In this document: positions 6,787 through 17,785 of the stretch, piece after piece
Position numbering within the stretch: the first letter of the stretch is position 1
Layout: each line of letters starts with the position of its first letter
NCBI RefSeq assembly: GCF_002849615.1
Contig: NZ_PDNV01000009.1
Coordinates: 62,001-126,000 of the forward strand
DNA: 64,000 nucleotides
Reading direction: 5' to 3'
DNA from: Pollutimonas nitritireducens
GTDB lineage: Bacteria > Pseudomonadota > Gammaproteobacteria > Burkholderiales > Burkholderiaceae_B
The notes under the pieces: model-generated
Told to the model about the DNA's origin: nothing
The model's database searches: none
Seen by the model: only the letters and a program-made list of their open reading frames with translations
Made by a program: the position numbers and the translations under genes

Positions 6787-6862
6787 GCGGGAATAGCTCA
6801 GTTGGTAGAGCGCAACCTTGCCAAGGTTGAGGTCGCGAGTTCGAGCCTCGTTTCCCGCTCCA
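6787..6862 (+). tRNA. tRNA-Gly (anticodon GCC)
   Basis: 76 nt including an encoded CCA. The acceptor stem GCGGGAA pairs with TTCCCGC. The D arm is GCTC...GAGC, the anticodon stem CAACC/GGTTG encloses the loop TTGCCAA, and the T arm contains GTTCGAG. Anticodon GCC reads GGC and GGU. A strong terminator follows 45 bp downstream. Confidence 0.97.
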
Positions 6863-7871: not shown

Positions 7872-8312
7872 TCCGGGCGCAGACACTACCAAGGACCTGC
7901 TCTTGCCACTGTTCGCAGCCCCGCGTCATCAGGCCTGAAAGTCGAGGCTAGTTTCGGGCACTACAAGCAGATTGAGACCCTGGCACGGTAGAATCCCGAC
8001 ATTGCCTTACCGATCGGGTACCGATTCGACTTAGCGCCGACCGCTATGTTGAGACCATGCCAAGCGCGCGTCCTCGCCGATCAGGGAGGGAGCAATGTGT
8101 ATAATCGGCAATGCTCCGGGGTGTGTTGCAGCCTGAAAGGGCGGACACTGAGATGAATAGAACGAACCCGTGAACTTGAATCGGATCATACCGACGTAAG
8201 GAGAGTGAGTTGTGCAGCGGCGCGCGCAGTACAACTGCAAGCTTTGACACTATCTACGACCCTTTCGGAGCACTACGCCGGCCCTGCCGGTAACACCAAC
8301 GAAAGGGCGAAC
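7872..8312. other. Intergenic region upstream of the luxE-like operon
   Basis: No convincing gene. It holds a perfect TATAAT at 8100-8105 without a clear -35, which is the best promoter candidate for the operon. Near 8011-8025 the word ACCGAT occurs twice around a GATC-centred near-palindrome, possibly an operator. The luxE-like frame stays open upstream to a GTG at 8205 with AAGGAG only 1 bp before it. Confidence 0.35.
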
Positions 8313-9419
8313 GTGATAAAAGCCGATACCACCGCGCCAGGCATAGCGCCGGAAATTCTGACAGACCTGCTGAAATTCATGAGCCGGCCCCAAGGCGGCG
8401 ACGACGAATTCAATGCCATTGCCCTGCGACTATTCACCCACCAGTTTCGACACAACCTGGTATTCCAGCACTATTGCCAGCAACAGGGAAAAACGGCACG
8501 AACAGTAAAGCACTGGCGCGACATTCCTGCCGTCCCCATCAATGCCTTCAAGGACCTGACGCTTAGTTGCGTGCCGCCAGAACGTTGCGAACGGGTTTTC
8601 ATGACCAGCGGCACCACGCGAATAGATAGCAAGGGCCGTCATTACCATCCTCACTTGCGCGTATACGATCACTCCATGAAGCTGCACTTTGCAGAGCGCT
8701 TCATGCGTGGAGAGAAACGACTGCGCATGGGCATCCTGTTTCCAACAGGAAACATGATGCCCAATTCGTCCCTGGCACACTATCTCGGTTTGGCGCTACA
8801 CGAGTTTGGGGCTGACGGCAGCAGCTACTTCATCGGCCCCAAGGGCATGGACACCGAACGCCTATGCGAAACGTTGGCTCAGGTGCAGCGCGATGGCGAA
8901 CCTTACGCCCTGCTCGGCGCCAGCTACAGCTTCGTTCATCTTATGGACGAGTTGCAACAGCAGGGCCTGGGATTTTCCTTAGCGCCAGGCAGCCGCTTGT
9001 TCGATACCGGCGGGTTCAAAGGTCAATCCCGCGAATTAGCGGCGGACGAATTTTATCGCCAACTCAGTGCAAGCTTTGGGGTGCCTGCCAGCGCGTGCTT
9101 CAACATGTACGGCATGACCGAACTCAGCACCCAATTCTATGACAATGGCAACGCCACGCAGCCGACGGTGAAGTCGGGGCCGCACTGGATACGGTCGCGT
9201 ACCGTAGATCCCATCACCGGACAAGACGTGCCGGCAGGCGAACGCGGCGTGCTGGTGCATTGCGACTTGGCGAACTTCAACTCGGTAACCACCATTCTTA
9301 CCGAGGATGTGGGCGAAACAGTCGACGGCGGCTTCATGCTGTTGGGGCGAGCTCAAGGTGTCCAGGCCAAGGGGTGCTCCATGGCAATGGATGCATTTTT
9401 GCAGGCGGCAAGGGCATGA
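8313..9419 (+). CDS. LuxE-like acyl-protein synthetase
   Basis: Member of the LuxE/adenylate-forming ligase family, which activates a carboxylic acid as acyl-AMP and loads it on a Cys for a LuxC reductase. 368 residues from this GTG, which has AAAGGG 5 bp upstream; family members are near 370-380. FMTSGTT (96-102) is the AMP/phosphate loop and YGMTE (266-270) the adenine-site motif. Cys355 in a KGCS motif near the C-terminus is where lux acyl-protein synthetases carry their acyl-accepting Cys. The stop overlaps the luxC-like start (ATGA). The alternative start at 8205 adds 36 residues with no conserved look. The substrate is unknown; it is not part of a luminescence operon. Confidence 0.85.
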   Translation: MIKADTTAPGIAPEILTDLLKFMSRPQGGDDEFNAIALRLFTHQFRHNLVFQHYCQQQGKTARTVKHWRDIPAVPINAFKDLTLSCVPPERCERVFMTSGTTRIDSKGRHYHPHLRVYDHSMKLHFAERFMRGEKRLRMGILFPTGNMMPNSSLAHYLGLALHEFGADGSSYFIGPKGMDTERLCETLAQVQRDGEPYALLGASYSFVHLMDELQQQGLGFSLAPGSRLFDTGGFKGQSRELAADEFYRQLSASFGVPASACFNMYGMTELSTQFYDNGNATQPTVKSGPHWIRSRTVDPITGQDVPAGERGVLVHCDLANFNSVTTILTEDVGETVDGGFMLLGRAQGVQAKGCSMAMDAFLQAARA

Positions 9420-10879
9420 AACCCGCGCTCAAGACCGTAGCTGGCTATATTCCCGGCATCTCGGCCAGCGCTTTAGCCTGGGAAACGCTGACTTTCGAGG
9501 CCCATGGACAGCGGCTGGAGGTGGCTTTGCCCAGGCTTACGCCATCGCAATTGAAAGCGGCGGCCACCACGGTAAGCGCGGCCGCACGGGACCACTTGGC
9601 CTCATTGCCTGTTCTGGAAGTTGTAGACATTATCGATCGCGCCATAGCACGCATGCTGGACGCCAGCGATCCCGGCCGTCAGGAAATCGAACGCATGCTG
9701 TCGGTCGTTAGCGGCTTCGATCCCGAGATGGTGAGACTGGGCATCAATGCCAGCCTGAAGGCCTTTCGCCGACCACAATTGCTGCGCTTTCTTGTCGAAG
9801 ATTTTGGCGACCCAGGCCTACTTGACGACTTCCGCCCTCGGGCAAAAGGTGGCTGGACACGCGCCTACGGCCCTGCGTTGCTGGGGCATGTATGGGCCGG
9901 AAACGTCCCCGGCCTGCCGCTATGGAGCATGGTGTCCGGACTGTTGGTGAAAGCCGGCAATGTAGGGAAAGTATCCAGCGACGAACCCCTGTTCGCGAGT
10001 TGGTTCGCACGCACGCTTGCCGAGGTTGAGCCGCGGCTCGCCAGTGTTTTCGCCATCGTCTGGTGGCCAGGGGGTGAAACAGCGCTGGAACAGACGCTAT
10101 GCCGGCACGCGGACGTGCTGACGGTATATGGCGGCGATGCGGCGCTTGCCGCCTGGCAGCGCCAGTTGCCTGTAGGCAAGCGCTTGCTGTCCCACGGCCA
10201 CAAGTTCAGCGCCGGCCTGATATCGGCCACCGCCCTGGATACCAGGCAATCCCAGCTTATGGCCAGGCAAGCCGCATTGGACATCGTACGGTGGGATCAA
10301 CAAGGCTGCTATTCACCACAAATTTTTTACGTCGAGCGAGGCGCCCAGGTTTCTCCACACGAGTTCGCCTGGCAACTTGCCGGCGAGATGGCCGCACTGC
10401 AACATGCATTTCCACGCCGCGCCTTGTCGCTGGAAGAGTCCGCCGCCGCAGCCAATTGGCGACAGACTCTCGGACTACACCAACTGCGAGGCGAGAATAT
10501 CGAATTGCTGGGGCCAGTGGACGCGCCTTGGTGCGTGGCTTATATCGACGAGCCCCAGACGCCTCCGCCGGGCGCATCAAATCGCACGGCATGCGTCGTG
10601 GCGGTCGACACCCTTGACGACGCCGCGCTTCGGCTAGGCAGCCAGAGCGCCTTTCTGCAAACAGTGGGGCTGGCTGCCAGTCCTGAGGAGTTGTTCCGCC
10701 TGGCACCTTTGATCGCGCAGGCGGGCGCCACCCGTATCTGCGCATTGGGCGCTATGACAATGCCTGCGGCCGCCTGGCATCATGACGGGCGCTTCAGCAT
10801 GCTGGACCTTGTCCGCATGGTCGATATCGAAGCCTCGGCGGAACAGGCCGCCGAGGCTTTGGCCTTATACAGGGATTGA
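9416..10879 (+). CDS. LuxC-like acyl-CoA/acyl-protein reductase
   Basis: LuxC family: NADPH-dependent reduction of an enzyme-bound acyl thioester to an aldehyde. 487 residues, the usual LuxC length. An aldehyde-dehydrogenase-like fold is suggested by GHVWAGNVPGLPLWSM (cofactor-site region, near residues 160-175) and the nucleophile Cys298 in RWDQQGCYSPQ. The SHGHKFSAGL segment lies before it. The start ATG overlaps the luxE-like stop by 4 bp, indicating translational coupling and probably a complex. In luminous bacteria LuxC and LuxE form a fatty acid reductase; here LuxD and luciferase are absent, so a different acid is likely. Confidence 0.87.
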   Translation: MKPALKTVAGYIPGISASALAWETLTFEAHGQRLEVALPRLTPSQLKAAATTVSAAARDHLASLPVLEVVDIIDRAIARMLDASDPGRQEIERMLSVVSGFDPEMVRLGINASLKAFRRPQLLRFLVEDFGDPGLLDDFRPRAKGGWTRAYGPALLGHVWAGNVPGLPLWSMVSGLLVKAGNVGKVSSDEPLFASWFARTLAEVEPRLASVFAIVWWPGGETALEQTLCRHADVLTVYGGDAALAAWQRQLPVGKRLLSHGHKFSAGLISATALDTRQSQLMARQAALDIVRWDQQGCYSPQIFYVERGAQVSPHEFAWQLAGEMAALQHAFPRRALSLEESAAAANWRQTLGLHQLRGENIELLGPVDAPWCVAYIDEPQTPPPGASNRTACVVAVDTLDDAALRLGSQSAFLQTVGLAASPEELFRLAPLIAQAGATRICALGAMTMPAAAWHHDGRFSMLDLVRMVDIEASAEQAAEALALYRD

Positions 10880-10892
10880 ATACCAGATCGCT

Positions 10893-11642
10893 ATGGACGA
10901 CGTTTTCTTAAGTATGCGCCAGGTCAGCTATCGCTACCCTGATGCGCCGGTCGCAGTCAGCGATGTAGATTGGCTCATGCCGGCGGGTGCCTTTCATTGC
11001 TTGCTGGGGCGCAGCGGCTGTGGCAAATCGACGCTGCTGAAACTGGCCTCGGGGCTGCTGCTGCCGGAGGCCGGCAGTGTGTCGCTCGAAGGCCAGCCAG
11101 TGTGCGGCCCCAGCCCGGCTACGGGTTTCGTGTTCCAGGCCCCCACATTGCTGGAATGGCTGAGCGTACTCGAGAATGTGTTGCTGCCAGTGTCCCTGCA
11201 ACGCTCGCCCGATGCCGCCGATACCGCGCATGCGCAAGCACTGCTCGATGAACTGAGCCTGGAAACAATGCATGATCGGTATCCGCGTCAGCTTTCGGGC
11301 GGCCAGCAAAGCCGGGTAGCGATCGCACGGGCCCTACTCACGCAACCGCGACTGTTGCTGATGGACGAACCCTTTGCAGCACTCGATGCACTGACACGCG
11401 AAGAACTTCAGGATATTTTGCTTGCGGTCTGCCGCCAGCATGGCACCTCGGTCCTGTTCGTCACGCACGACATCGCCGAAGCTGTCTACCTTGCCGATCG
11501 CGTGGCCGTGATGAACAGGGGTCGCATCGCCTGCGAGAAATCGATAGCACTGGCTCGCCCCCGATCACCCGGGCTGCGACACAGTACGCAATTCAATGCG
11601 ATCTGCGCCAGCCTGCGGCAGGTCATGGATACGACACAATGA
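10893..11642 (+). CDS. ABC transporter ATP-binding protein, taurine/nitrate/sulfonate type
   Basis: Cytoplasmic ATPase of an importer of the SsuB/TauB class. 249 residues. The Walker A motif GRSGCGKST is at 39-47, the signature LSGGQQSRVAIARAL near 133, Walker B LLLMDEP near 155 and the switch His in FVTHDIAEAVYLADR. The frame extends upstream into luxC, but the ATG at 10893 gives the standard N-terminus. It begins 13 bp after the luxC-like gene and overlaps the permease by 4 bp. Confidence 0.9.
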   Translation: MDDVFLSMRQVSYRYPDAPVAVSDVDWLMPAGAFHCLLGRSGCGKSTLLKLASGLLLPEAGSVSLEGQPVCGPSPATGFVFQAPTLLEWLSVLENVLLPVSLQRSPDAADTAHAQALLDELSLETMHDRYPRQLSGGQQSRVAIARALLTQPRLLLMDEPFAALDALTREELQDILLAVCRQHGTSVLFVTHDIAEAVYLADRVAVMNRGRIACEKSIALARPRSPGLRHSTQFNAICASLRQVMDTTQ

Positions 11643-12433
11643 AAGTGAAAGCAGGCCTCTGGAAATCGTCACGGATCTGGTCGCTGACGCTGCTGCTGGC
11701 TGTCCTGGTGGTGTGGGAATGGACTGCTGCCGCATTTGCGTGGTCGGATCTCGTGCTGCCGGCACCATCCACGGTAGTGCGGTCTCTATGGCGGGGACTG
11801 TCTTCGGGCTACTTCTGGCCGCACATTGCACAAACCACACTGGAAGTCATCGCGGGACTGGCGCTTGGAGGATTATTCGGATTCGTCTGCGGGCTGTTGC
11901 TGGGTGAATCCGCCTTCGGTCGTCGCGTGTTCATGCCTTATGTCGTGGCCAGCCAAGTCATGCCCAAGCTCGCGCTTGCACCACTGCTGACCGTTTGGCT
12001 GGGCTTTGGCACGCTGCCTATGGTGGTCATTACCGCACTGGTCTGTTTCTTCCCCTTGCTGGAAAGCACAATGACCGGCATCGGCCAAACGGACTTATCC
12101 CGCCGGGAACTGTTTCGCATGCTGGGCGCCACACGCTGGCAAACCTTGTGGCGTCTCCATGTACCGACAGGGCTGCCGGTCATACTTGCGGGACTGCGCA
12201 TGGCAGTCGTCCTGGCGCTGGTCGGGGCTGTAGTGGGCGAATTCATAGGCGGCAGCCAAGGGTTGGGCGCGCTCATCATCGCTGCGCAAGGTTCCATGGA
12301 CACGCCACTGATGTTTGCCGTGCTCACGCTCATTACCCTTGAAGGTTTGTTGCTTTATCTTGCCGCCGTGTGGGTGCAAAAGCGACTGCTGCGCCCCTAC
12401 GCCATCACCTATCCAGGACATCAACGATCATGA
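11639..12433 (+). CDS. ABC transporter permease, taurine/nitrate/sulfonate type
   Basis: Inner-membrane permease of the SsuC/TauC class. 264 residues with about six hydrophobic segments. The cytoplasmic coupling loop is visible as ELFRMLGATRWQTLWRLHVP, the EAA-type motif that contacts the ATPase. The start ATG overlaps the ATPase stop (ATGA), and its own stop overlaps the binding-protein start in the same way. The substrate cannot be read from the sequence. Confidence 0.9.
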   Translation: MKVKAGLWKSSRIWSLTLLLAVLVVWEWTAAAFAWSDLVLPAPSTVVRSLWRGLSSGYFWPHIAQTTLEVIAGLALGGLFGFVCGLLLGESAFGRRVFMPYVVASQVMPKLALAPLLTVWLGFGTLPMVVITALVCFFPLLESTMTGIGQTDLSRRELFRMLGATRWQTLWRLHVPTGLPVILAGLRMAVVLALVGAVVGEFIGGSQGLGALIIAAQGSMDTPLMFAVLTLITLEGLLLYLAAVWVQKRLLRPYAITYPGHQRS

Positions 12434-13443
12434 CACTCATACGAACGCTATTTCCGCGGTGCCTGGCGACGCTAGGCGCGGGCATTGCCCTGGCGCTTGT
12501 TATGCAAGCCAGCTGGGCCCAGGCTCCAGAGCTTGAAAAATTCACGCTGGCGGGCTGGAGCAAACCTATCACCGAGATCACCAATTTGCTGGCTGAGCCG
12601 GACATGGGTTTTTTTCGGGATCAAGGCCTAGCGCTGAGTTATCTTCCCGGCGCGGGGGGTGGCGATGCCCTGCGCAACCTATTAAGCGGTCAGGCCGATG
12701 TCGCGTTCACCGATCCCGGTTCCTTCTTTGCGGCGCTGGATAAAGGCGCCAAGCTACGCGCCATTTATGACATCTACCCACAAAATGTATTCAATGTCGT
12801 GTCGCTGGCGTCCAGCGGCATCACCAAGCCATCCGACCTCAAGGGCAAGCGAATTGGCGTGTATAGTCTCTCGAGCGGCACTCGGCAAAATTTGCAGATT
12901 CTTTTGCAACAGGTCGGGCTAGGCGAGGCCGACGTGACAGTTGTGGTGACTGGCCTGCTCAATTTCATCCCGCTTATACAGCGTCAGGTCGATGCCACGG
13001 CCGCCACCGACACCGGCCTGGCCCTTGCCCGGCAGCGTGGTTTGGGGGCCGTCAATGTGATCGAGGTCGCGAAATATTTGAACTATTCCAGCGATTTGTT
13101 CGTGGTGCGCGAATCCACCTACCAGCACGACAAGGACAAGCTGCGCCGCTTCATTGCCGCCTACCGCCGCAGCGCCGAATGGATGATCAGCGAACCTGAA
13201 CGCGCAGCGCAGTTGGCGGTACGGCGCGCCATCGATGGGCAAGACCCGGCGCTGAACGCGGAAATCATCGCAATACGCAATCGCGCCAGCGTCTCTGACT
13301 TGACACGCCGGCTGGGCCTGGGCGTACTTGACCTGGATACGCTGCAAGCAGCGGCCGACGCTTACCTCAAACTGAATTTGATCAGCCGGGCCATCACAAT
13401 ACGCGACGTCGTAGGTTTGGATTTGACTCCCCGCATTGAATAA
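12430..13443 (+). CDS. ABC transporter substrate-binding protein (NMT1/THI5-like)
   Basis: Periplasmic binding protein of the TauA/SsuA/NMT1 superfamily. 337 residues. A Sec signal peptide (basic start, hydrophobic 10-25, likely cleavage after SWAQA) precedes the mature domain. Conserved family elements are GWSKPITEITN, EPDMGFFRDQGL, GGGDALRNLLSGQADVAF and DLKGKRIGVYS. There is no lipobox Cys. It completes the three-part importer in the luxE/luxC operon. Family ligands include taurine, alkanesulfonates, aromatic acids and pyrimidine precursors; given its neighbours, a carboxylate is an inference. Confidence 0.88.
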   Translation: MTLIRTLFPRCLATLGAGIALALVMQASWAQAPELEKFTLAGWSKPITEITNLLAEPDMGFFRDQGLALSYLPGAGGGDALRNLLSGQADVAFTDPGSFFAALDKGAKLRAIYDIYPQNVFNVVSLASSGITKPSDLKGKRIGVYSLSSGTRQNLQILLQQVGLGEADVTVVVTGLLNFIPLIQRQVDATAATDTGLALARQRGLGAVNVIEVAKYLNYSSDLFVVRESTYQHDKDKLRRFIAAYRRSAEWMISEPERAAQLAVRRAIDGQDPALNAEIIAIRNRASVSDLTRRLGLGVLDLDTLQAAADAYLKLNLISRAITIRDVVGLDLTPRIE

Positions 13444-13465
13444 AGACCGGAAACAGGAAACAGAC

Positions 13466-14233
13466 ATGGATTTCAAAAACAAAGTTGTGCTCGTGACCGG
13501 CGCCGGCCGGGGCATAGGCGCCGCCATCGCCATGGCCTTTGCCCGCGAAGGCGCTTTGGTTGTGGTCAATTACCTGCGCAACGAAGATGCCGCAGACCAA
13601 GTCGTCGATCGCTGCAAAGAATCGGGCGGCGACGCCTGGGCCATAAGGGCCGACGTGATGGACCCGGCGGCAGTGGAAGGCATGATCGCGCAAGTGCTTG
13701 TGGAAACCGGCCGCATCGATGCTGTCGTCAATAATGCCTTTCGCGCGTATCGGTTCAACCCCGATCATCGGCGCCGTTTCCAGGAACTGGACTGGGGCGC
13801 ATATCAAGAACAATTCAACGGTGCCGTGCAAAGCGCCTGCAATGTATGCAAGGCAGTCCTGCCCCATATGCGCCAACGCGCCAGCGGAAGTATTGTGAAT
13901 ATATCCAGTGATCTGGTGGAACACCCCGTGGTGCCCTACCATGACTATGCGACGGCGAAGGCGGCACTGGTCGGTTTCAGCCGCCACCTGGCCGCTGACT
14001 TGGGTCCTTATGGCATACGGGTCAATTGCGTCGCACCGGGATTGGTGTGGCCCACGGATGCCAGCCGGGAAACCCGCGAGTCGATACGTGAACAACTGGC
14101 CGGGCAAACGCCGCTGCGTCGCATTGCCACCCCGGAAGATGTGACAGGGCCGGTGATGTTTCTGGCCTCTGACTGGAGCCGCTTCATGACGGGCCAGGTA
14201 CTTTATGTGGATGGCGGCCTGGTGATGCGTTAA
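13466..14233 (+). CDS. Short-chain dehydrogenase/reductase (FabG-like)
   Basis: NAD(P)-dependent oxidoreductase of the classical SDR family, 255 residues. The cofactor motif TGAGRGIG is at 11-18, the NNAF motif lies near 90, a Ser is found in VNISSD and the catalytic pair is Tyr161/Lys165 in YATAK. The C-terminal VDGGLVMR is typical. The ATG at 13466 follows a purine-rich stretch and gives the standard SDR start. Last gene of the operon, 22 bp after the binding protein. It may oxidise or reduce the product of the LuxC step, or act on a beta-oxoacyl intermediate. Confidence 0.9.
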   Translation: MDFKNKVVLVTGAGRGIGAAIAMAFAREGALVVVNYLRNEDAADQVVDRCKESGGDAWAIRADVMDPAAVEGMIAQVLVETGRIDAVVNNAFRAYRFNPDHRRRFQELDWGAYQEQFNGAVQSACNVCKAVLPHMRQRASGSIVNISSDLVEHPVVPYHDYATAKAALVGFSRHLAADLGPYGIRVNCVAPGLVWPTDASRETRESIREQLAGQTPLRRIATPEDVTGPVMFLASDWSRFMTGQVLYVDGGLVMR

Positions 14234-14308: not shown

Positions 14309-14382
14309 GGCGCAATGGCAGAGTGGTCATGCAGCGGATTGCAAATCCGTCCACCCCGGTTCGATTCCGAGTTGCGCCTCCA
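14309..14382 (+). tRNA. tRNA-Cys (anticodon GCA)
   Basis: 74 nt with encoded CCA. The acceptor GGCGCAA pairs with TTGCGCC. The anticodon stem CGGAT/ATCCG encloses TTGCAAA, anticodon GCA. The T arm contains GGTTCGATTCC. A TACAAT -10-like box lies at 14270-14275. A terminator follows 18 bp downstream. Confidence 0.96.
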
Positions 14383-15316: not shown

Positions 15317-15922
15317 TTGCTTTGTAAACAGGACAGACATCCTACAGACGACTTTCCCAAAGCGGCCACTGCCCATGCAGCGACGCTTCAGGACCGGAGT
15401 GACAGTTGGTATGTCGTGTATACCAAGCCCCGGCAAGAGTCAGTAGCGGAGTTCAACCTTCAGTGCCAAGAGTTTGAAACCTACCTGCCACTATTCAAAG
15501 TAATCAAGAAGGCAGCGCTGGCGGATCGGCAGACTCAAGATGCTCTCGAACCATCCACCGTCTATGAGCCAATGTTTCCCCGGTATTTGTTCTTCAAGCC
15601 GGCCAACCAGAGGCAGTCCATTGCCGCCGCGCGATCGAGCCGCGGGGTTCAAGGCCTGGTGACATTCGGCGCCGAACTGGCGATGGTTCAACCGAATGTG
15701 GTGCGAGCTATCCGGGAGCTTGAGGCAGAGCGCAACAGCGCAGACATCACCGGTATCACTCCCTTCCAGCCCGGACGTCGCGTGCGCTTGCGCGACACTG
15801 CCCTGGAGGGCATGGAAGGCGTCGTTCATGCAGTAGGAGCCAAACGCGTTGTGCTACTGATGACTATTCTGGGCCGGAAAAAGACACTCAAAGTGACGCA
15901 CGGCCAGTTGGAACTTGTGTAG
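15317..15922 (+). CDS. NusG/RfaH-family transcription antiterminator
   Basis: Specialised NusG paralogue of the RfaH type. RfaH binds RNA polymerase and ribosomal protein S10 to keep long polysaccharide operons transcribed and translated. 201 residues against 162 in E. coli RfaH. The NGN domain begins near residue 31 (DSWYVVYTKPRQESVAEFNL) and contains the characteristic MFPRYLFF; the C-terminal KOW domain has GRRVRLRDTALEGMEGVV. Start TTG at 15317, chosen because AGGAAGG lies 7 bp upstream and no in-frame ATG precedes the domain; the first 30 residues are an unusual extension. First gene of the polysaccharide operon. Identity as an RfaH-like factor is strong, its exact target unproven. Confidence 0.85.
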   Translation: MLCKQDRHPTDDFPKAATAHAATLQDRSDSWYVVYTKPRQESVAEFNLQCQEFETYLPLFKVIKKAALADRQTQDALEPSTVYEPMFPRYLFFKPANQRQSIAAARSSRGVQGLVTFGAELAMVQPNVVRAIRELEAERNSADITGITPFQPGRRVRLRDTALEGMEGVVHAVGAKRVVLLMTILGRKKTLKVTHGQLELV

Positions 15923-16157
15923 ATCTACCGAGCTGTTTGATCGTATCGACGCTAGCCTTGCAGCAGCATTTATCAGTACTGCCTTGTATTGGGAGAGTCT
16001 TGTGCATCGCCTCGCGAACGAGGGCGAGGCACAGGCGCTCCCACCACCGGATATTGGAATAAGGGGTGGCACCACAATGTGTTTCTTGCCTGATATGGCG
16101 AAAAACACTGCGGTAGCCTGCCCGGCCGTTTTAAATCATGTTTTTAAAGCTCATTTG
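15923..16157 (+). other. Leader between the antiterminator gene and wza
   Basis: 235 bp with no supported gene, although the wza frame stays open through it. It contains a hairpin, GCCTCGC (16009-16015) with GCGAGGC (16024-16030), and a GGTGGCACCAC palindrome-like stretch near 16067. Neither is followed by a T-run, so they are not terminators. It may be a regulatory leader or a site for the RfaH-like factor. Confidence 0.35.
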
Positions 16158-17330
16158 ATGAAAGTATCGTTTGCAAGCCAGGTGCCTGGTTTTCGTGCCC
16201 GTTGTGCCAAGTTAAGTTCAGTGGTGGGACTGTCCGTCCTGCTCTCGGCATGCGCGTTCGCTCCCGGCATGCACATGGGCGACCCCGTGGATGACAAAGC
16301 GGCGATAGAAGCGGACGCCGCTCCCGCCGGCGCGCTCACCTCCATAACGGGCGAGCTCATCGTGAAACAACGCCAAACTCAGGCGAAAGAAGTCAAGAAG
16401 GAAGTAAAGCGCCTATTCGGTGTTGGCAAATCCTACACAATAGGGCCGGGCGACATTGTCAATATTGTAGTGTGGGGCCACCCTGAACTGGCGCTCGCCC
16501 CCGCCACATCGAACCGCAGCATGGGTTCCTCCAGCCAAGCCGACGTCGGTAATGGCTACAACGTGAATCCGGACGGCACGATCCAGTTCCCCTTCGTGGG
16601 TCCGGTCAAGATTTCTGGTCTGACCGAAAACCAGGCACGCGATCTCCTTACCCGGCGCATTTCGAAATACATCAAGGATCCGCAGATTACTGTCCGGGTC
16701 CAGGCCTATCGTAATGACCGCGTATATATAGACGGTGAAGTACGTGTGCCCGGATTGCAAACGTTGGATGACATACCCATGACGTTGCCGGAGGCCATCA
16801 ATCGCGCTGGGGGATTCACGCCCGAGGCGGATCGCTCGACGCTGATTCTTACCCGCAAAAACACATCGATAGAAATCAATCTACCCCAGCTGACACGGCT
16901 GGGCGTGAACCCCAACCGCATCATGTTGGCGGATGGAGACCTGCTCCGTGTCGTGAGTCGGAATGAATCGAAGATTTTCGTCCTGGGCGAGGTTTCCACG
17001 CCACGCGCGCTGCAAATGCAGGACGGCCGCTTGTCACTGACTGAAGCGCTTGGAGAAGCTGGCGGCGCAAGTCCACTGACGGCCGATGCCGGCCAGATAT
17101 ATGTCATACGCAAGGTCCCTCATGAAAAAGATGCCGAGGAAAAGGCGGAGATCTATCACCTGGATGCGGCATCGCCTTCCGCATTCATGTTGGCCAACGA
17201 TTTCCAGCTCAAGGCCCGCGACGTTGTCTACATAGACGCAGCACCCGTCGTTCGCTGGCACCGTGTGATCGGAAATCTGCTGCCCAGCTATGACAGCCTG
17301 CTCATTAACACCCGAAACACCACCAAGTAG
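16158..17330 (+). CDS. wza: Polysaccharide export outer-membrane lipoprotein (Wza-like)
   Basis: Octameric outer-membrane channel for capsule or exopolysaccharide export. 390 residues, close to Wza (379). The lipoprotein signal peptide ends in LLSAC with lipidated Cys32. The Poly_export domain begins with YTIGPGDIVNIVVWGHPEL, followed by NVNPDGTIQFPFVG, and SLBB repeats (DRVYIDGEVRVPGL, KIFVLGEVSTPRAL). Start at 16158 gives a proper signal peptide; upstream in-frame codons to 15915 do not look coding. Followed after 11 bp by wzb. Confidence 0.9.
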   Translation: MKVSFASQVPGFRARCAKLSSVVGLSVLLSACAFAPGMHMGDPVDDKAAIEADAAPAGALTSITGELIVKQRQTQAKEVKKEVKRLFGVGKSYTIGPGDIVNIVVWGHPELALAPATSNRSMGSSSQADVGNGYNVNPDGTIQFPFVGPVKISGLTENQARDLLTRRISKYIKDPQITVRVQAYRNDRVYIDGEVRVPGLQTLDDIPMTLPEAINRAGGFTPEADRSTLILTRKNTSIEINLPQLTRLGVNPNRIMLADGDLLRVVSRNESKIFVLGEVSTPRALQMQDGRLSLTEALGEAGGASPLTADAGQIYVIRKVPHEKDAEEKAEIYHLDAASPSAFMLANDFQLKARDVVYIDAAPVVRWHRVIGNLLPSYDSLLINTRNTTK

Positions 17331-17341
17331 GTCGCGATCTC

Positions 17342-17785
17342 ATGGAAAACATCCTTCTCGTCTGCGTCGGCAATATCTGTCGCAGCCCGGTTGCCGAAGC
17401 CATGCTCAAGGTGCAATTGCCAGACAGGAATATCTGGTCAGCGGGGCTTTCGGCGCTGGTAGGCAAGCCGGCCGATCCGCTGGCGCAGTCCATCGCTGCG
17501 GAACACGGACTGGACATATCGGCTCATCGCGCCCAGCAGCTGACGAAATGGATGTGCGAGACAGCGGATCTTCTGCTGGTCATGGAAGACGGCCACAGGC
17601 AGGAACTGGAAGCACAGCATCCGCTGGCCCGCGGAAAAATCCACTGTCTCGGCGATCTGGGACTGGGCACTGTACGGCAAATTGCCGATCCATACCGGAA
17701 ACCGAGAGCGGCATTCGAGATTGCCCATGCGGAAATCGAGCGCGGCGTCAATTTTTGGGCCGAACGCATCAGGCTATTGAGTTAA
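17342..17785 (+). CDS. wzb: Low-molecular-weight protein tyrosine phosphatase (Wzb-like)
   Basis: Cytoplasmic phosphatase that dephosphorylates the Wzc tyrosine kinase. 147 residues, the same as Wzb. The P-loop CVGNICRS has the nucleophile Cys8 and Arg14. The general acid is Asp116 in DPYRK. Lies between wza and wzc, the classical order. The gap to wzc is 10 bp, containing AAGAG. Confidence 0.94.
   Translation: MENILLVCVGNICRSPVAEAMLKVQLPDRNIWSAGLSALVGKPADPLAQSIAAEHGLDISAHRAQQLTKWMCETADLLLVMEDGHRQELEAQHPLARGKIHCLGDLGLGTVRQIADPYRKPRAAFEIAHAEIERGVNFWAERIRLLS

Follow-up and report, generated by a model that had tools for sequence, protein, structure and literature searches.

The operon and its leader

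We analysed a window of 64,000 nucleotides of Pollutimonas nitritireducens (contig NZ_PDNV01000009.1, positions 62,001 to 126,000 of the forward strand), in which a six-gene operon encodes a LuxE-family acyl-protein synthetase, a LuxC-family reductase, a three-protein ATP-binding cassette (ABC) importer and a short-chain dehydrogenase/reductase (SDR), and is headed by a thiamine pyrophosphate (TPP) riboswitch aptamer. In window positions, the operon and its leader comprise the following features.

8107-8219, + strand: TPP riboswitch aptamer (THI element, RF00059) in the luxE leader; cmscan 54.5 bits, E 6.6e-8, full model 1-105
8260-8307, + strand: predicted expression platform, CCCUUUCG at 8260-8267 paired with CGAAAGGG at 8300-8307; presumed ribosome-binding site inside CGAAAGGG, just before the GTG start
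8313-9419, + strand: LuxE-family acyl-protein synthetase (adenylating), GTG start; Pfam PF04443 5e-19, PDB 7xc6 LuxE 1.4e-16
9416-10879, + strand: LuxC-family acyl-thioester reductase; Pfam PF05893 1e-83, PDB 7xc6 LuxC 2.6e-14
10893-11642, + strand: ABC importer ATPase (taurine/nitrate/sulfonate superfamily); Pfam PF00005 (ABC_tran) 5e-31
11639-12433, + strand: ABC importer permease; Pfam PF00528 (BPD_transp_1) 5e-31
12430-13443, + strand: NMT1/THI5-like substrate-binding protein, ThiY-like fold in a predicted model; Pfam PF09084 (NMT1) 3e-46
13466-14233, + strand: SDR, proposed aldehyde-to-alcohol step; Pfam PF13561 (adh_short_C2) 9e-62

The six open reading frames are intact and in the order given by a preliminary description of this DNA, with 4-bp overlaps at the luxE/luxC, ATPase/permease and permease/binding-protein junctions and gaps of 13 and 22 bp at the other two. 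Its assignments to the LuxE family, the LuxC family, an ABC importer and an SDR were each borne out by Pfam. The SDR also passed the cut-off of NCBIfam NF006393, a family named 3-oxoacyl-ACP reductase (297.5 bits, cut-off 292), and the ABC ATPase reached no NCBIfam cut-off among the matches listed (best 25 of 189). Four proteins of the whole genome matched PF05893 over the cut-off, the operon LuxC at 282 bits and three others at 22 to 33 bits. Neither luxD nor luxAB was found by Pfam among the six operon genes, as had been claimed for the operon, the Pfam search having covered ten window proteins and not the rest of the 64 kb.

With an RF00059 gathering score of 54.3 bits, the match in the window leader is confirmed as a TPP riboswitch aptamer. 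It is absent from the preliminary description because the stretch described there starts at the luxE start codon. Since the score in the window is marginal, the leaders of relatives were searched as well. All 26 luxE+luxC loci whose leader was searched, a set that includes the window and spans Burkholderiales and Bacilli, have a TPP aptamer before the unit's first gene, on the strand that encodes it; L017 and L099 (contig end inside luxE) were left out of this count. Fifteen of these aptamers reach the gathering score (the window, L015, L016, L019, L020, L022, L034, L087, L088, L089, L090, L091, L092, L093 and L094), and the other 11 fall below it, at 42.2-54.1 bits (L013 as L006, L014, L018 as L007, L021 as L010, L023 as L012, L033 as L027, L035 as L031, L036 as L032, L085, L086 and L098). 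The first gene behind the aptamer is luxE in 20 loci, an NCS2 permease of the xanthine/uracil type in L016, L093 and L094, thiD in L034 and L098, and thiE in L091, at a distance of 0 to 205 bases as computed for 20 loci. These leaders bear on the idea that the operon serves a generic metabolism of fatty or xenobiotic acids, the riboswitch being incidental. LuxE and LuxC of luminous bacteria do act on fatty acids, which counts for this idea; against it, the aptamer is present in every leader searched, even where the transporter is a different one, and three of the loci lie inside thi operons, so that we hold it to be highly improbable.

Downstream of the aptamer, the region 8245-8325 folds with a predicted energy of -25.8 kcal/mol (z -3.44). 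A helix of 6-8 bp ending 1-13 bases before the luxE start was present in 8/14 Burkholderiales leaders (the window, L013, L014, L019, L020, L022, L033 and L035), with three different arm sequences among them. The helix in L018 is of 5 bp, and none was seen before the luxE start in L015, L021, L023, L036 or L034, in the last of which thiD comes first; for L013, from Pollutimonas bauzanensis, single-sequence folding gave no sequestering helix. Helices of at least 6 bp were found at 453/700 random positions of the same leaders, and helix length alone is for this reason no evidence. What points to an expression platform is the position of the helix and the matching changes in its arms, which are suggestive.

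Conservation of the LuxE-LuxC-SDR core

The search of other genomes proposed in the preliminary description recovered the order luxE-luxC-(transporter)-SDR in Burkholderiales and Bacilli, and this recurrence indicates that the arrangement is not due to chance. LuxE, LuxC and the SDR occur together in 25/25 loci long enough to tell (of 26; L085 ends inside luxC). A complete ABC set is present in 19/26 loci, and the NCS2 permease at the front of L016, L093 and L094, all three Bacilli loci, replaces the ABC importer there. At L018 (G053, 9686-12112) luxC, the permease and the binding protein are present and no ATPase was found within 19 kb, a gap that could reflect either a distant ATPase or an effect of assembly or decay. 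LuxE, LuxC and the SDR form the constant core, and both the transporter and the flanking genes vary from locus to locus.

The acceptor Cys355 of LuxE is kept in 23/23 aligned sequences and Cys298 of LuxC in 24/24, and Tyr161 and Lys165 of the SDR are invariant in 24 aligned sequences; the LuxE alignment was made without the frame-broken L016 and without L085 (contig end), the LuxC alignment without L085, and L098 is in neither. Loss of the cysteines or of open frames in relatives had been named beforehand as a sign that the genes are decaying: both cysteines are kept throughout the alignments, and in L016 the frame of luxE is interrupted. Retention of the cysteines, the joint presence of the three enzymes and exchange of the transporter together support the proposed import, activation and reduction of a carboxylic acid.

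The luxE-luxC-SDR gene set is rare, patchy and well conserved. LuxE was matched in 8/101 near relatives, in 11/398 genomes of the class of Pullulanibacillus, which we take to be Bacilli, and in 3/74 of the family of G293 (a carrier discussed below), one of these matches being a fragment; LuxC was matched in 8/399 of the order. Where the genome of the window belongs to the sample, it is counted as well. One search of genome contigs gave five loci, one of them incomplete. In a tree of LuxE+LuxC+SDR the ten Bacilli loci form a single group (support 1.000), and the tree accordingly offers no evidence of recent transfer between Burkholderiales and Bacilli. The operon in the window sits between tRNA genes at 6787-6859 and 14309-14379, the second of which begins 75 bases past the SDR stop. 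Insertions often occur at tRNA genes, and the presence of such genes on both sides would fit the patchy distribution.

Past the second tRNA gene, at 15317-17785, an exopolysaccharide export cluster seems to start, with NusG-like and Wza-like proteins (Pfam) and an open reading frame that presumably encodes a small tyrosine phosphatase; the cluster is unrelated to the operon. A link between the two was considered and ruled out, as the operon ends before the tRNA at 14309-14379 and the exopolysaccharide genes were not found beside the operon in the 16 relatives compared.

Thiamine genes and the candidate substrate

The neighbour genes of the relatives were compared by BLAST with the window proteins and with thi proteins, and were partly given to Pfam. 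In G293 (L034) a single run contains the riboswitch, thiD, luxE, luxC, the ATPase, permease and binding protein, the SDR, thiE, thiO, thiS and thiG; here Pfam supports thiD, thiE, thiG and an oxidase of the DAO family taken as thiO, and thiS was recognised by eye. The riboswitch of this operon is the sole TPP riboswitch found in the G293 genome, in which ThiC was not found (genome 98% complete). G856, which belongs to another genus than G293, has thiD, luxE, luxC, the ABC set, the SDR, thiE, thiO and thiG in the same order behind an aptamer of 49.1 bits. In G596 the module is preceded by a riboswitch, a thiE-type gene, thiO, thiG and thiF, and in G617 it is followed by thiM. No thi gene was found inside the unit, among the genes compared, in the remaining 22/26 operons. 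Genes that use 4-amino-5-hydroxymethyl-2-methylpyrimidine (HMP) thus stand under the TPP riboswitch as thiD+thiE in G293 and G856 and as the thiE-type gene in G596, and in none of the other 23 operons. The aptamer in all leaders searched and these thi contexts place the operon in vitamin B1 metabolism, and we consider it very probable that the operon has a role in thiamine metabolism.

Such contexts also bear on the direction of the pathway. The operon might conceivably degrade or oxidise a thiamine fragment, with the SDR and LuxC running oxidatively, as the reactions of SDRs and aldehyde dehydrogenases can in principle go either way. Genes behind a TPP riboswitch, however, are normally silenced at high TPP, just when a catabolic pathway would need them, and in G293, G856 and G596 the module is embedded in thi operons for biosynthesis; an oxidative role appears very remote on these grounds.

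Further TPP riboswitches were encountered as close pairs. In L090 (G746, 10457-10759) two stand back to back, one heading luxE-luxC-SDR without a transporter and the other a PF09819 membrane protein that we take to be YkoE-like. The genome of the window itself has a second, divergent pair (L067; G000:C36:218132-218444), which heads, in one direction, an SDR and a luciferase-like (PF00296) monooxygenase and, in the other, an SSF symporter and a HAD hydrolase. A close pair also occurs in 7/11 non-carriers searched (G001, G002, G004, G005, G014, G017 and G022), and was seen in none of the remaining Burkholderiales luxE carriers among the 12 searched. When eight non-carrier loci were compared (those seven and G007), the monooxygenase and the symporter were present in 8/8 and the SDR in 7/8. 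The L067 pair may mark another undescribed route of thiamine salvage.

For the LuxE/LuxC operon we favour, with a probability of roughly 0.6, a function in recovering the thiamine pyrimidine from its oxidised form, the 5-carboxylate; the substrate and the direction of the reaction are what we infer here. The preliminary description had proposed import of a carboxylic acid, its activation by LuxE, reduction by LuxC and turnover by the SDR, with no link to light, and this is still the best reading of the chemistry; it missed the controlling riboswitch and for that reason left the identity of the acid open. At low TPP the leader RNA would allow translation of luxE, and with TPP bound the ribosome-binding site would probably be sequestered. 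The ABC importer, or the NCS2 permease in its place, would import an oxidised fragment of thiamine, for which the acid of HMP, 4-amino-2-methylpyrimidine-5-carboxylate, is the most likely candidate. With ATP, LuxE would adenylate the carboxylate and load it on Cys355, LuxC would take the acyl group onto Cys298 and, using NAD(P)H, form the aldehyde from it, and the SDR would convert the aldehyde to HMP. Phosphorylation of HMP by ThiD and joining of the pyrimidine to the thiazole by ThiE would complete the path.

Two-step reduction of a ring carboxylate would yield exactly the CH2OH group of HMP, which fits the pyrimidine acid as substrate. To judge from the title of Neal and Pearson (1964), a reference of PMC7780320, 4-amino-2-methylpyrimidine-5-carboxylate is on record as a thiamine metabolite. 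By sequence the binding protein matches 3qsl, THI5-type proteins and 4nmy. In a Foldseek search with its predicted model the best match was 4nmy, in a thiamin-bound form, and the second 3ix1, the binding protein for formylaminopyrimidine (FAMP) of Bacillus halodurans (TM 0.67/0.74, 15% identity), so that the modelled fold agrees with a thiamine-pyrimidine cargo. The 'taurine/nitrate class' of the preliminary description holds as a superfamily label for the importer; the modelled fold of the binding protein most resembles those of thiamin- and aminopyrimidine-binding proteins and, only slightly less, those of sulfonate binders. Replacement of the ABC importer by an NCS2 permease likewise fits a pyrimidine-like cargo.

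Several observations weigh against salvage of the pyrimidine acid. The binding-protein model, built from four sequences, is of middling confidence (predicted local distance difference test, pLDDT, 69.6), and 4nmy and 3ix1 are closely followed by sulfonate-binding SsuA and by Thi5, the sulfonate binders 3ksx and 2x26 standing at ranks 3 and 5; the search gives no clean separation of ThiY-like from sulfonate binders, and the latter are themselves among the members of the NMT1/THI5 family. The aptamer of the window clears the RF00059 cut-off by just 0.2 bits. The operons of L088 and L090 have no transporter. ThiC is kept in 20/23 carriers, so that HMP supply through the operon is not the sole option there, and it was not found in the other 3/23 (G293, G447 and G522). 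The combination of absent thiC and present thiG occurs in 3/23 carriers versus 2/20 Bacilli non-carriers, which shows no clear enrichment; the 20 non-carriers are the first 20 listed and the comparison is not used as statistical support. In Pullulanibacillus camelliae (G447, L016) the LuxE frame at 7974-9022 is split in two pieces, luxC and the SDR gene being apparently intact, which could be due either to decay or to a sequencing error. The same genome has a further TPP-riboswitch operon besides that of LuxE/LuxC, which we read as tenA-ykoEDC, its first gene being tenA-like; G447 probably has another source of HMP in this operon and does not depend on LuxE/LuxC alone. Finally, the gene directly downstream of the module in G617, thiM, is a thiazole gene.

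The pathway genes of the carriers help to decide which part of thiamine is recovered. For a thiazole product ThiM would be required, and for a thiamine product usually thiamine pyrophosphokinase (TPK) or thiamine kinase; a pyrimidine product calls for ThiD, which is present in the G293 and G856 operons. ThiG was found in 23/23 carriers tested (E 2e-99 or better), indicating that thiazole synthesis seems intact. ThiM was over the cut-off in 9/25 carriers and was not found in G293 or G596. TPK was over the cut-off in 10/25, of which seven matches, all in Bacilli, are near full-length and three are short, at 31-36 bits; it was not found in 14/14 proteobacterial carriers, the route by thiamine kinase and ThiL being outside the search. 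The scarcity of ThiM and of near full-length TPK argues against both thiazole and whole-thiamine products.

On the thiazole side, the acid would be 4-methylthiazole-5-acetic acid, reduced to hydroxyethylthiazole and used via ThiM. The acid-to-alcohol chemistry would be identical, and the thiM beside the module in G617 and the thiazole genes ahead of it in G596 speak for such a substrate; set against the few carriers with ThiM, the ThiG of every carrier tested and the thiD rather than thiM held by the G293 and G856 operons, they leave it quite improbable. Repair of the whole vitamin would instead start from thiamine acetic acid, which is formed by thiamine oxidases and would be imported and reduced to thiamine. 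This would agree with the thiamin-bound top match of the binding protein, with the near full-length TPK of seven Bacilli carriers and with the fact that TPP riboswitches also control thiamine transporters. We nevertheless judge it unlikely, as TPK was not found in the proteobacterial carriers and as a thiamine product has no use for the thiD that the operons of G293 and G856 contain.

If the pyrimidine acid is the substrate, the operon would represent a way of obtaining the thiamine pyrimidine that is independent of ThiC and so far undescribed, in which LuxE, LuxC and the SDR together form a three-protein reductase, turning the carboxylate into the alcohol HMP. The module would be common to Burkholderiales and Bacilli, would work with interchangeable transporters, and would imply an environmental pool of the oxidised B1 pyrimidine; to this wider picture we give about even odds. 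In many environments growth is limited by vitamin B1 and its fragments. The route would add, by enzymatic salvage, an oxidised fragment regarded as waste to the breakdown products that microbes can reuse, would give LuxE/LuxC homologues beyond luminous bacteria a concrete function that is easy to test, and would predict that some thiC-less bacteria can live on the oxidised pyrimidine. It would also provide a small-molecule carboxylate reductase of separate parts, possibly useful in biocatalysis. Vitamin B1 salvage as such is known; what would be new is its use of enzyme families known from light production.

Comparison with known systems

With TPP riboswitch regulons the operon shares the RF00059 aptamer in its leader; it differs in its LuxE/LuxC members, which were not found reported among the matches listed. 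No literature joining LuxE/LuxC with thiamine or TPP riboswitches was found in the excerpts of those matches, and an earlier mention may exist in the thiamin-regulon study of Rodionov et al. (2002) or in work on the ThiY structure. In the excerpt of PMC3219970, luxE serves only as an array probe.

The LuxC-LuxE fatty acid reductase of luminous bacteria (PDB 7xc6) consists of the same two families, encoded by adjacent genes, and both its LuxE acceptor and its LuxC catalytic cysteine are kept here. By contrast, the operon has a TPP aptamer at its head and an SDR in every locus long enough to tell, and no LuxD or luciferase alongside in the genes scanned. The operon LuxE and LuxC score 69.6 and 69.4 bits against the luminescence equivalogs NF052244/NF052251, whose cut-offs are 550/750, and by this measure they are related to the luminescence enzymes without being their orthologues. 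As possible functions, fatty-acid cycling and hidden luminescence were also considered and are ruled out by these scores, far under the cut-offs, and by the TPP aptamer in the leader.

Carboxylic acid reductase (CAR) converts acids to aldehydes via a thioester, driven by ATP and NAD(P)H, in a single large enzyme with a phosphopantetheine arm. The proposed reaction of LuxE/LuxC would resemble that of CAR in leading from acid to aldehyde through a thioester, and would differ in that two separate proteins with cysteine carriers perform it.

The closest likeness in thiamine metabolism is with the salvage of FAMP and other aminopyrimidines, which relies on the ThiXYZ importer, YlmB and TenA, according to the passage of PMC5627462 that cites Jenkins et al. 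(2007); YlmB and TenA act on FAMP and on the aminopyrimidine AmMP, as stated in parts of PMC5627462 and PMC10470507. Both systems have a TPP riboswitch at the head of an NMT1/THI5-class importer and would turn a thiamine pyrimidine derivative into HMP, and the nearest folds of the modelled binding protein include 3ix1. They would differ in chemistry: here a carboxylate would be reduced by LuxE, LuxC and the SDR, whereas in FAMP salvage YlmB and TenA act on the formylated and the free amine.

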